DNA of 33,563 nucleotides from Faecalicoccus sp. Its GTDB lineage: Bacteria; Bacillota_I; Bacilli_A; Erysipelotrichales; Erysipelotrichaceae. Shown in pieces: positions 18,610 through 22,266 of this stretch. The stretch is from contig JAGAWH010000068.1 of NCBI GenBank assembly GCA_017941505.1, positions 1 through 33,563 of the forward strand, written 5' to 3'. The notes under the pieces were generated by a model that made no database searches, was not told the origin of the DNA, and was given only the letters and a program-made list of their open reading frames with translations. Positions within the stretch are counted from its first letter, which is position 1. Each line of letters starts with the position of its first letter. Made by a program: the position numbers and the translations under genes.

Positions 18610-18696
18610 GCCCGGGTGGTGAAACTGGTAGACGCAGTGGACTCAAAATCCACCGGTAGCGATACCGTGCCGGTTCGAGTCCGGCCTCGGGCACCA
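18610..18696 (+). tRNA. tRNA-Leu (anticodon CAA)
   Basis: An 87-nt class II tRNA. The acceptor arms GCCCGGG and CTCGGGC pair with one G-U. The anticodon stem GTGGA/TCCAC encloses the loop CTCAAAA, with CAA at 18644-18646, reading UUG. A long variable arm (around CGGTAGCGATACCG) is typical of tRNA-Leu. The T arm is GCCGG-TTCGAGT-CCGGC. Discriminator A and CCA are encoded. Confidence 0.97.
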
Positions 18697-18976: not shown

Positions 18977-20068
18977 ATGAGAGCATATGAAGGAGACAAG
19001 CCCTATATCTTTGTGAGCTATGCGCATAAAGACAGTAAGAAAGTTTTTCAAATAATAGAACAGCTGCAGAAGCGGGGATACCGTATCTGGTATGATGAAG
19101 GAATTGAACCGGGAACGGAGTGGCCGGAAAACATTGCCCAGCACTTAATAAAGTCGGATACCTTTATTGCCTTTGTGACAGAGAATTCCATGAATTCTGC
19201 CAACTGCAGAAGAGAGATCAATTTTGCCCTGTCTAAAGAGAAACCGTTTTTAACGATCATATTAGAAAAAACAGAAATTCCTGCCGGCATGGAGTTACAA
19301 ATCTCTGCCCAACAGAGCATATTGAAATATAATTACAGCGATGAAAATCGCTTCTATGACAAAATTGAATCCTGCTCCTTTTTAGAAGACTGTAAAGGGG
19401 AAGTAGAGATTGATGTTGAAAACGCACCTTCTCAACAACCTCAAAAGAAGGCATTTCCGATATTACCGGTGATCTTAGGTGTCTGTCTTCTTGCAGGAAT
19501 TGCCATCTTTTTGCTCTTACCAAAAGGACAGAGTGAAAGCAAGCCCAACCAGCAGATTGTAGAGACCACAGTAGATAACCAGGACGCAGATAAAAAAGAA
19601 GAGACCACAGATGATACATCGGATAAGAAAGAAGATACTACCGATATCGCCTCGACATCGAATACTAGTGTATCCTGGGTTTATTCCATCAACCGTAATG
19701 ACTCCAGTCTTATCTATACCTTTGAAAGAGGTCCGGTTATCTCTATGCCTTTAGACTATGATGGACAGATTGATGTTGTGGAAGATACTGATAATGACCG
19801 GATTAATTTCTATCACAAAGCCAGCAAAGATGCCTGGGAGATGGATGGATATAAAGGCGGATTGTTGTTCTCTTTGAATTTCAGTGAAAAGAAGGATTAT
19901 TTATATCTTCCGGATTATCAGGATATAGGAAGCACTGCAGATGGCTTCTACTATTTAAGCTTTCCGACCGATCTGCAGGCTTATTTTGGAAATGAGAGAA
20001 TTGCGTCTCAATATTCGGAGTTATGGTCGCAAATTGATTATGTGAAACAGAATGTCCGTATGAACTAA
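18977..20068 (+). CDS. TIR-domain membrane protein with unknown ectodomain
   Basis: A 363-aa protein. Residues 9-130 form a TIR domain: YIFVSYAHKDS, GYRIWYDEGIEPGTEW and NSANCRREINFAL, where E80 occupies the position of the catalytic glutamate of NAD+-cleaving TIR domains. A single transmembrane helix follows (about 160-182), then an acidic, Thr-rich linker with two near-copies of KKEETTD/KKEDTTD (206-228), and a C-terminal domain (about 230-363) that I do not recognise, rich in aromatic residues. With the TIR part cytoplasmic, the C-terminal domain would be outside the cell. GAGG precedes the ATG. It converges on, and overlaps by 4 nt, the RyR-domain membrane gene. It may be a defence or signalling receptor; no substrate or trigger can be named from sequence. 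Confidence 0.85.
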   Translation: MRAYEGDKPYIFVSYAHKDSKKVFQIIEQLQKRGYRIWYDEGIEPGTEWPENIAQHLIKSDTFIAFVTENSMNSANCRREINFALSKEKPFLTIILEKTEIPAGMELQISAQQSILKYNYSDENRFYDKIESCSFLEDCKGEVEIDVENAPSQQPQKKAFPILPVILGVCLLAGIAIFLLLPKGQSESKPNQQIVETTVDNQDADKKEETTDDTSDKKEDTTDIASTSNTSVSWVYSINRNDSSLIYTFERGPVISMPLDYDGQIDVVEDTDNDRINFYHKASKDAWEMDGYKGGLLFSLNFSEKKDYLYLPDYQDIGSTADGFYYLSFPTDLQAYFGNERIASQYSELWSQIDYVKQNVRMN

Positions 20069-21849
20069 TTGATAAAATGTTCGATATTACGGACATTTTG
20101 TCTGTCTAATTCTTTGTAGTTTGTCTGGGTGCCGGTTAACTGATATACAAATTGATCGAGTTCATCCAGCTTGTCCCAGTCAATCAGACAGGCATGCAGC
20201 TTGTTGACACGGTCTACAGTAATCCGTATATCGGAATGTCCCTGTTTCTCAATCTGTTCATTTCTTTGCGCTGCTCTTTGAGAGATGACATTTTTATTCA
20301 TTGTTTGATAACCCTTCGTATAATGGAACGCACACCATCTTAGATGTTCGGTCCTGGAAAGATTTTCCAATACTTCATCATTGACTTCCGGTACCTTATC
20401 CATGATTTTTTTATACACATCGATAAAGTCGGCCATAGCTCTTGAACTCTGGCGGCTGAAGGCATCCGCCTTTTCCCATGCGGATTGTATATTTACATCA
20501 TTTGAATACAATTGGTTTACTTTCATAGCTCTGTCATCAATTGTCTTAGTGATTAGTACATCCGAGCCATATAAAGCCTGCGGTTCTGAAAGATCATTAA
20601 AGATCTTTACTTCATTTTCATAACATTGAATAATGGTACACCTTTGATTTGTCATACTTTCCCAGATGGAAGCTAAAGAGGCATTATCATGTTCATTACT
20701 CATACAGATCATGACTACATCAAATTGATCGAGGGCATCCTTTAATACGGAAACAGCTCCTAATGAACGGCAGTCTTTATTGATCATGGTGATATCATAG
20801 TTTTCAAACAAGCCCGGATTTTCGTGTTTATACGGTCCGGCTAAATTATCCAGATCCTTATCGATAATATAGTAATGCGTCTTACATCCTTCAAACTGGG
20901 TATTTCTTACAGTATCTGAAAATACTTCCTGTCCCAATATACTAAATCCTACAATGGCTATATAGAGATCATTTTGTGCCAGTGCTGCGTCATTGAAATG
21001 AATATGGTCTACAAAGGATGCTTTACGGGTAACCAGTCTTGCGGTCAGCTCTTTTTCCGTAAAGCAGAAGATATTGTTGTATTGTTTACTGTTTGTCTGC
21101 AGAATCTGGTCTAAAGTTTTTTCTGTGGCCCGTATGGTTAACGATGCCTTTGAATTGGCATCCTTTAAGATGTTGGCAAAGCGATACGCAAATTCCATAT
21201 TGTTCTGCTCATTGGGACTGATGCAGTAAAGTTGAATACCTTTTTTATGTTTGAGACCGAAATTGTCTTCAAAGCGCGGATTGGTACTGTCGACTACCAC
21301 AAAGCCTAACTGGTTGATAAAATTCGAATAATCAGAAGTAGAATGGTCATCGATAAAGACAATCAATGATTTTGGATTACTCTTTAACAGAGCCTTGGCA
21401 TGATTGAATGAATTTCCATCCGTACCATAGATAATATTGACTTCCTGACGGGATAGTTTTAATAAAATCCCTCTATTTTTAAGAATCAGCGTGGATCCGA
21501 TGGTGGATAAAACGGCACTGGCAGTCATGTAAAATGCCAGTAAATGAACGGACCAGAATATAAACTGGCCGGGAAGCGTGGCATACAGCGGTGTATTTTT
21601 AACGATATCATAATTGACATTTCCGACAAACATCGCAAGGACCTGGAGTGCCGTTCGTATCACTGCGGTAAATAATAATGTTTCATTTACTGTAAAGGCA
21701 TAACCATATATCAATAAGCCTGAGATGACCACGATTAAAAAAAGCGGAAAATAAATTTTATCAATGAGTTTTGTTCGTCTGGCGATAATAATAAACAAAA
21801 TAATAACGAGTACTGCGGATGCCGCAACAGTAATAAGGAAATTAGTCAT
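20065..21849 (-). CDS. Membrane protein with Rossmann (TrkA-N-like) domains and C-terminal RyR-like domain
   Basis: A 594-aa protein. The N-terminal 125 residues hold about four transmembrane helices (3-22, 33-51, 57-76, 98-122). Two nucleotide-binding-like Rossmann units follow: NIIYGTDGNSFNHAKAL (138-154), and IAIVGFSILGQEVF (297-310) with IIDKD at its next acidic strand. Residues 495-590 (LSRTEHLRWCAFHYTKGY, then KLHACLIDWDKLDELDQ) resemble the bacterial RyR domain. No potassium selectivity filter (TVGYG) is present, so it is probably not a K+ channel despite the TrkA-like fold. AAGAAGGA precedes the ATG. It lies 18 bp after a small unknown gene and faces the TIR gene. RyR domains have been proposed as nucleotide-ligand sensors; a link to TIR products is my inference. 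Confidence 0.72.
   Translation of the reverse strand: MTNFLITVAASAVLVIILFIIIARRTKLIDKIYFPLFLIVVISGLLIYGYAFTVNETLLFTAVIRTALQVLAMFVGNVNYDIVKNTPLYATLPGQFIFWSVHLLAFYMTASAVLSTIGSTLILKNRGILLKLSRQEVNIIYGTDGNSFNHAKALLKSNPKSLIVFIDDHSTSDYSNFINQLGFVVVDSTNPRFEDNFGLKHKKGIQLYCISPNEQNNMEFAYRFANILKDANSKASLTIRATEKTLDQILQTNSKQYNNIFCFTEKELTARLVTRKASFVDHIHFNDAALAQNDLYIAIVGFSILGQEVFSDTVRNTQFEGCKTHYYIIDKDLDNLAGPYKHENPGLFENYDITMINKDCRSLGAVSVLKDALDQFDVVMICMSNEHDNASLASIWESMTNQRCTIIQCYENEVKIFNDLSEPQALYGSDVLITKTIDDRAMKVNQLYSNDVNIQSAWEKADAFSRQSSRAMADFIDVYKKIMDKVPEVNDEVLENLSRTEHLRWCAFHYTKGYQTMNKNVISQRAAQRNEQIEKQGHSDIRITVDRVNKLHACLIDWDKLDELDQFVYQLTGTQTNYKELDRQNVRNIEHFIN
20074..20099. terminator. Hairpin between the convergent TIR and RyR genes
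   Basis: AAAATGTTCG, ATATTA loop, CGGACATTTT (10 bp with one G-U). The arms end in A4 and T4, so it could terminate transcription in both directions, though no longer T-run follows. It lies in the last codons of the minus-strand gene. Confidence 0.5.
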
Positions 21850-21867
21850 TATTAGAAATCCTTCTTT

Positions 21868-22266
21868 CTATAAAAAATACAATGTATGTTCACACATGCT
21901 GACATAATGAGCATTTAAAGTTTTGTTGTCCAGATCGACGCCGAATTGATTCATCGTATCATAAAGATTTGTTAATGCGTCTTTACGGGCAAAGGCGATT
22001 TCATCATCAGAAGACTCTTCTAAGTCAAAATAGATTTCTATTTCATTGATTAGTCTTGACCAATCCGGCCAATCCAGATTTTCCTTGCGGATTATTTCTT
22101 TCAATCGATATTTAATTCTTTCTTTTGGCTTCATGTGTTTATCCCTTCTAATATTATTCATGAAAAACTGTTTAAATTGTTGGATATTGTTGTTTTCTTC
22201 TATTATCGTATCAAATATTTTTACAAACCAAAATAACAACTCTGATTTTCTTTTTTCATCTTTCAT
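21868..22266 (-). CDS. Hypothetical protein, upstream of the RyR-domain gene
   Basis: Not recognised. The longest frame gives 132 aa: a charged, helix-rich protein with an acidic middle (EIYFDLEESSDDEIAFARKD) and C-terminal LNAHYVSMCEHTLYFL, without transmembrane segment or signal. The start is uncertain. The ATG at 22266 directly follows an in-frame stop and has no ribosome site. The ATG at 22134 (88 aa, MKPKERIKYRLK...) has AGAAGGG 8 nt upstream. The first 44 codons are AT-rich but free of stops, which weakly favours the longer form. It lies 18 bp before the RyR gene, so the two probably form an operon. Confidence 0.6.
   Translation of the reverse strand: MKDEKRKSELLFWFVKIFDTIIEENNNIQQFKQFFMNNIRRDKHMKPKERIKYRLKEIIRKENLDWPDWSRLINEIEIYFDLEESSDDEIAFARKDALTNLYDTMNQFGVDLDNKTLNAHYVSMCEHTLYFL

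Follow-up and report, generated by a model that had tools for sequence, protein, structure and literature searches.

In Thoeris, the TIR protein ThsB works with ThsA, and Thoeris effectors are built on a SIR2-SLOG or a macro-domain anatomy. The gene pair described here resembles that arrangement in that a TIR domain with its catalytic glutamate in place is set beside a plausible reader of an NAD-derived nucleotide, but it departs from Thoeris on both sides of the pair: the TIR protein is predicted to cross the membrane once and to carry an ectodomain that varies, and its neighbour, rather than a SIR2-SLOG or macro-domain effector, is an RCK channel-like protein that ends in a domain resembling part of the ryanodine receptor (RyR). 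The two genes lie in a 33,563-nucleotide stretch of Faecalicoccus sp. DNA (Bacillota; Erysipelotrichaceae; contig JAGAWH010000068.1 of assembly GCA_017941505.1), hereafter the window, where the TIR gene occupies positions 18977..20068 of the plus strand and the RyR gene positions 20065..21849 of the minus strand. With a probability of roughly 60%, the two genes are the minimal form of a module in which a membrane TIR receptor would make an ADP-ribose-type (ADPR-type) nucleotide that gates the RyR channel.

Three further systems bear on this reading. The RyR-like domain can be compared with RyDEP, a phage RyR protein that is reported to cleave 2'/3' cyclic ADP-ribose (2'/3'cADPR) by means of H75, W78, H100 and D117, of which H75 and D117 are named as the catalytic dyad (PMC13232231). 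The same source states that phage RyR domains bind 2'/3'cADPR, that six of eight tested RyDEP homologues bound the signals, that none but RyDEP cleaved them, and that some homologues soak up cADPR signals (PMC13232231). Likeness to RyDEP and to the RyR Repeat12 domain (PF02026) lies in the four ligand-contact residues, which have counterparts in the window protein. Whereas RyDEP is described as a phage protein destroying cADPR signals, the window domain ends a bacterial channel subunit beside a TIR gene. The channel part, in turn, shares with the RCK-gated channels GsuK, CASTOR/DMI1, Slo1, MthK and TrkA the order S5, pore helix and S6, followed by two Rossmann/RCK units, whereas an extra N-terminal helix, an altered filter, the RyR-like C-terminus and the TIR partner set the window family apart. 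If the proposed mechanism holds, there would also be a likeness to animal cADPR-ryanodine receptor signalling, in that a TIR-type NAD enzyme, an ADPR-type messenger and an RyR-domain channel would act together; the animal receptor, unlike the bacterial RCK scaffold, is a giant Ca2+ release channel, and only the Repeat12 module is common to both.

The association of the two genes is seen well beyond the window. Scanning genome contigs turned up 178 relatives, and the loci of 80 of these were analysed, with TIR genes and channel partners assigned by open reading frame (ORF) and profile rules of our own. The operon formed by the RyR gene and its usual potassium (K+) channel partner has a TIR ORF no more than 500 bp away in 31 of the 80 loci, where chance would give 0.09, and no more than 4 kb away in 42; the number of loci expected to have a TIR gene at 3 kb by chance is 0.52. 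These expectations take TIR genes to be evenly spread at the TIR_2 density of the 80 genomes (210 matches in 206.4 Mb, with at least one in 79 of the 80). Beyond 4 kb, no further TIR ORFs were found out to the locus ends, up to 10 kb away. When the RyR proteins are clustered at 60% identity, 28 of 44 clusters have a nearby TIR gene, and in a tree of the family a nearby TIR gene is scattered over 41 of the 56 scorable rows, the window included, with 8 changes. This was a quick tree with long branches, the window's among them, in which 22 rows went unscored, nearly all owing to contig ends. All of its 76 locus rows bear the label Bacillota save L018, which carries no lineage, and many of the loci come from ruminant gut samples. 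Together, the TIR protein and the RyR channel make up a single module that recurs in Bacillota, many of which live in guts, and the functional pairing proposed in the initial annotation gains its support from this adjacency in distant lineages.

The TIR proteins at these loci share a common design. Taking the longest TIR protein of each locus, a choice that omits twins of about 270-300 amino acids lacking the glutamate motif, all 42 match TIR_2 at E <= 0.001 and all 42 keep the glutamate. A simple hydropathy scan places a hydrophobic segment after the TIR domain in 39 of them; of the remaining three, one is truncated where its contig ends. The ectodomains, on the other hand, vary, and include beta-propeller/PQQ, TPR, LRR, DUF285, Sel1 and MORN/RHS types, or none that is recognised, as would be expected for receptors that feed one effector. 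TIR proteins close to the window's own occur at two of the loci, L041 and L049 (phmmer E 3e-57 and 6e-58), where their genes precede the RyR gene by 69 and 61 bp, and the one at L049 is fused to LRRs.

A second sample was drawn irrespective of RyR, and consists of 299 genomes from the family to which Butyrivibrio hungatei DSM 14810 (G067) belongs, a strain whose RyR gene has neither a TIR gene nor a channel partner adjacent to it; five of its RyR genomes were already among the related loci. The RyR protein is present in nine of these genomes and TIR_2 in 140. All nine RyR genomes have TIR_2, as compared with 131 of the 290 others (Fisher p 9e-4), so that the two families do co-occur elsewhere, as the initial annotation would have it. 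TIR proteins like that of the window (E <= 1e-30) are encoded by 16 genes in 14 genomes, and the RyR protein is found in four of those 14, versus five of the other 285 (p 3e-4).

Some loci depart from the simple arrangement. Ten of them (L016, L017, L021, L023, L025, L040, L055, L057, L090 and L092) hold what looks like a larger version of the system near the RyR gene and, mostly, the K+ channel gene as well: a TIR-like protein of about 270-300 amino acids without the glutamate motif adjoins a TIR protein of about 670-690 amino acids, in what looks like a pair of pseudo-TIR and TIR, and in nine of the ten a clustered protein of 840-920 amino acids appears to be exported. At three Butyrivibrio loci (L047, L058 and L065), the RyR gene has similar lipoprotein-like neighbours, with no adjacent TIR gene or K+ subunit. 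The gene at L003:1-1113, transcribed divergently from a second, diverged RyR homologue, was read by eye as a TIR-NACHT protein; Pfam did not confirm the TIR domain, and the gene was not counted.

In the case of the window itself, the ORFs bear out the layout given in the initial annotation. The TIR and RyR genes are convergent, and their 3' ends share four nucleotides (20065-20068), while 18 bp separate the RyR start from a small gene (21868..22266) that sits upstream on the same minus strand. The TIR gene encodes 363 amino acids, of which approximately residues 8-139 (18998..19393) form the TIR domain, as judged by fold matches and by a match to Pfam TIR_2 above the cut-off (E 4.9e-22). The codon of the putative catalytic glutamate, E80, lies at 19214-19216. 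Its column is glutamate in the 42 TIR proteins from related loci and is invariant in the 46-row alignment of the TIR family (A4), and the domain is, going by its sequence, a putative NADase-type TIR domain with the catalytic glutamate in place. A single transmembrane segment, residues 162-180 (19460..19516), was located by hydropathy in L015, a near-identical homologue. Residues 232-363 (19670..20065) make up a C-terminal extracytoplasmic alpha/beta domain, which AlphaFold models as a folded domain (per-block predicted local distance difference test score, pLDDT, 64-93) and in which W234, Y236, G252, P253 and W287 are conserved in A4. This C-terminal part would sense something outside the membrane. 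In the fold searches, the 50 matches listed per search all fell on the TIR part and none on the ectodomain. The TIR domain with E80, the single membrane segment and the ectodomain that the annotation had described are all seen again here.

No assignment to a known defence system could be made for the TIR protein. No NCBIfam defence model matches at its cut-off, with the Thoeris model ThcB4, at 31.7 bits against a cut-off of 220, falling far below, and the PADLOC ThsB models match across the TIR domain only, in matches that are shown without a cut-off.

The RyR gene product, of 594 amino acids, is predicted with a mean pLDDT of 91.2. The initial annotation had seen four membrane helices, two Rossmann units and a C-terminal RyR-like domain, and had found no transport role for either protein. 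The two Rossmann units stand, as RCK folds, at residues 136-263 (21061..21444) and 295-410 (20620..20967), on the basis of secondary structure and RCK fold matches. The plain four-helix part does not, since the modelled helices are three long ones (2-23, 27-55 and 92-132) and a short one (59-73), a layout suggestive of a channel pore, with an extra helix, an S5-like helix, a pore helix and an S6-like helix within residues 2-132 (21454..21846), rather than a simple bundle. Nor does the absence of a transport role, because the protein has the fold of an RCK K+ channel subunit and its relatives usually occur with a subunit bearing a GYGD filter. The structure search returned TrkA, GsuK, CASTOR and Slo1, with full-length GsuK aligning from model residue 26 onward, and the pore module is followed by two Rossmann/RCK units, as in RCK channels. 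By its model, then, the protein is predicted to have an RCK-type K+ channel subunit fold with a diverged RyR-like C-terminus.

What the protein lacks is a K+ selectivity filter of the TVGYGD type. In the alignment of the window family (A2), the filter loop, which with the pore helix spans residues 59-80 (21610..21675), conserves F74 (82/88), G76 (86/88), N78 (69/88) and aspartate or glutamate at 79 (78/88), so that the pattern F-x-G-x-N-[DE] replaces TVGYGD. The window's own loop reads GNVNY, with valine rather than asparagine at 78. As TVGYGD is absent, the window protein is classed as a channel-like subunit and not as a K+ channel. Neither PADLOC nor NCBIfam models match it, and Pfam gives nothing meaningful.

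The C-terminal domain, residues 491-594 (20068..20379), was assigned through a chain of profiles. Among 12 members of alignment A1, none matches PF02026 at E <= 1, and compared with RyR1 directly the A1 profile gives a weak E of 0.57. The bridge is provided by the usual channel partner, a second RyR-bearing subunit: A2 and the partner alignment A3 align over 402 columns that include the RyR region (probability 99.9, E 6.4e-33), and the A3 profile in turn matches the ryanodine receptor Repeat12 in the PDB at E about 1e-21. RyR1 is not among the 50 fold matches listed for the whole model, where single domains are hidden by large proteins. To the chain are added the conserved residues, which in A2 are H502 (88/88), W505 (88/88), H552 (87/88) and D582 (87/88). 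In the partner, the corresponding residues are H459, W462 and H484 (each 51/51) and D501 (50/51), at exactly the spacing of RyDEP. In the window family an insertion lies between W505 and H552, and the domain, unlike Repeat12 itself, is below Pfam detection. We read H502, W505, H552 and D582 as the probable counterparts of RyDEP H75, W78, H100 and D117, an equivalence that is our reading of alignments and spacing and is most tentative for D582 and D117. Profile homology and ligand-contact residues together support a C-terminus that is RyR-like, as the initial annotation had supposed.

In most relatives, the RyR gene does not stand alone. It abuts a gene for a channel subunit of about 515 amino acids in 59 of the 80 loci, with the partner downstream in 48 and upstream in 11, and the median gap between the two is -4 nucleotides (exactly -4 in 25 of the 59). 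The GYGD filter is invariant in the 51 partners aligned; some of the 59 fall outside that alignment as they are cut by contig ends or are too long or too short. The partner profile matches K+ channel pores in the PDB, KcsA included, at E 6e-21 to 1e-18. Five partners were scanned, and all match both Pfam Ion_trans_2 and RyR (PF02026), the latter at 28.0-32.1 bits in four (cut-off 27.4) and at 25.6 in the fifth, and the partner likewise matches RyR1. Given the 402-column alignment, the RyR subunit and the K+ subunit look like paralogues.

Of the 21 loci where no partner is adjacent, 12 belong to genomes with a strong match elsewhere (E 1.7e-68 or better) and two to genomes with a diverged one (E 2.9e-40 and 2.2e-24); in at least three genomes (G079, G080 and G082), the distant partner is directly beside a TIR_2 match. 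The remaining seven genomes gave only self-like or generic pore matches, and among them is the window's lineage, in which no K+ channel partner was detected, as judged on the nearest genome, a metagenome assembly that is 85% complete. The window's channel-like subunit appears to act without a K+ subunit.

Two further loci show other arrangements of the channel genes. At L087:9887-16737, three RyR-type channel subunits of 605, 506 and 589 amino acids stand in a row, and no membrane segment is predicted for the product of the TIR gene that comes next. At L126:8710-10731, the slot of the K+ partner, which has the RyR gene on one side and two TIR genes on the other, is taken up by several short ORFs, one of them with a weak channel match, and looks broken.

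A mechanism can be proposed that would join these parts. The single-pass receptor would sense something outside the membrane through its variable ectodomain and, once triggered, perhaps by a phage, an attack on the envelope or a gut cue, its TIR domain would convert NAD+ to a nucleotide of the ADP-ribose type, for instance a cADPR isomer. This nucleotide may then bind the RyR-like domain at the C-terminus of the RCK-type channel subunit, whereupon the gating ring, predicted from the modelled fold, would open or shut an ion pathway, which in most relatives would be the GYGD-type K+ pore of the second RyR-bearing subunit. The likely output would be cell arrest or death brought about by ion flux or depolarisation, or else an adjustment of membrane potential. 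The role would probably be defence against phage or envelope attack, and this is the weakest step of the proposal.

A number of observations weigh against this reading. The window protein gives no direct Pfam RyR match at E <= 5, and the altered pore loop may not conduct. A TIR gene is missing from 38 of the 80 loci; in 15 of these the contig extends for at least 4 kb in either direction, and in the other 23 it falls short of 4 kb on a side. In the sample of 299 genomes, a TIR gene lies within about 2.2 kb of only three of the nine RyR genes (G123, G168 and G329), and only one of the 16 genes for window-like TIR proteins, in G329, adjoins an RyR gene. Being mostly apart from RyR, these TIR proteins indicate that the class also works elsewhere; the TIR-RyR association is real but not exclusive, and the window's TIR class also occurs apart from it. 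Three of the 12 distant matches to the channel partner have an in-frame stop. Finally, the two window genes are convergent and not co-transcribed, whereas the nearest TIR gene is co-directional in 37 of the 42 loci. The window pair is a convergent variant of the module and not its typical form.

The flow of information might also run the other way, with the RyR/RCK protein sensing a nucleotide or ionic change, caused for example by phage attack, and the TIR protein acting as the effector that depletes NAD+. RCK units are known sensors of nucleotides and ions, which fits the fold matches to TrkA, GsuK and CASTOR, and some bacterial TIR proteins are reported to deplete NAD+ (Cat1) or to be NADases (SpbK). 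Yet the receptor-like ectodomains that vary are on the TIR proteins, and it is the channel part that stays constant, with a conserved ligand pocket. Such an arrangement is what one would see if many sensors fed a single effector, and the reversed order is unlikely. Quite unlikely, too, is a role for the RyR domain as an enzyme that ends the signal, hydrolysing TIR-made cyclic ADPR in the manner of RyDEP and so resetting or guarding the pathway. The catalytic dyad of RyDEP does have conserved putative counterparts in H502 and D582, but most of the tested homologues were reported to bind the signals, and none but RyDEP to cleave them (PMC13232231), so that conservation does not imply hydrolysis, and fusion to a gated channel suits sensing better.

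RCK K+ channels are usually homeostatic, and the TIR domain could simply dock envelope sensing to a K+ channel for potassium or osmotic homeostasis, with no NAD chemistry involved. The ten other window genes scanned are consistent with this, being mostly housekeeping or metabolic, and they lend no support to a defence-island location. Such a role is improbable, however, because a docking domain need not keep a catalytic glutamate that is nonetheless present in 42 of 42 TIR proteins, and because the sporadic distribution of the RyR protein (2 of 60 relatives and 9 of 299 genomes) is unlike that of a housekeeping function. It is more doubtful still, and indeed highly improbable, that the window pair is incidental or degenerate, the remnant of a fuller module from which the K+ subunit has been lost. 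The convergent orientation, the divergent pore loop and the missing channel partner in the nearest genome, itself incomplete, would agree with decay. Both ORFs are nevertheless unbroken, in the window and in that nearest genome, which has the TIR protein at 95% and the RyR protein at 99% identity. Moreover, protein searches returned homologues of the two with equally long longest contigs (13328 bases, with RyR at 85% and TIR at 92% identity; 12822 bases, with RyR at 51% and TIR at 62%), so the pair has probably been kept together down to 51-62% identity, and a TIR gene is adjacent in five of the seven genomes where no partner was detected.

The surroundings of the pair in the window add little to the module. 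The small gene at 21868..22266 (132 amino acids, minus strand), which the initial annotation had counted as a third family, is a lineage orphan by homologue search, with only two homologues, 98-99% identical, and was ruled out as a third component. In the 1500-base block surrounding it, G+C drops to 0.354. Just upstream of the TIR gene, ARAGORN places a tRNA-Leu(caa) at 18610..18696 on the plus strand, given here for context only. Transfer RNA genes are common landing sites for islands; this one was considered as an integration site and set aside, as no second copy of its 3' end occurs within the window.

Judged by titles and the beginnings of abstracts among the literature matches listed, no description of a TIR receptor coupled to an RyR channel was found. 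A 2015 survey of nucleotide-centric conflict systems may already have discussed bacterial RyR domains and proposed them as nucleotide sensors, and part of the TIR-RyR idea may have been predicted earlier.

The module is probably an instance of TIR nucleotide signalling that acts through an effector of a new type, and if this is so, an ion channel would join the effectors through which such signalling acts. More tentatively, and at somewhat less than even odds, the same genes may represent a bacterial axis running from TIR through cyclic ADPR to an RyR-domain RCK channel, in which the diverse membrane TIR receptors of Bacillota would make an NAD-derived messenger that gates RCK-type channels directly by way of their RyR domains, a messenger-and-sensor pair as in animal cADPR-ryanodine receptor signalling. 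The TIR systems concerned, whether immune or envelope-sensing, would then form a class with an ion channel as effector. Bacterial RyR domains would gain a cellular role, shortly after the report that phage RyR proteins destroy cADPR signals, and simple bacterial proteins would become available for testing the long-debated link between cADPR and the RyR module. A large number of membrane TIR proteins, whose ectodomains are swappable, would turn out to be the receptors of one pathway.

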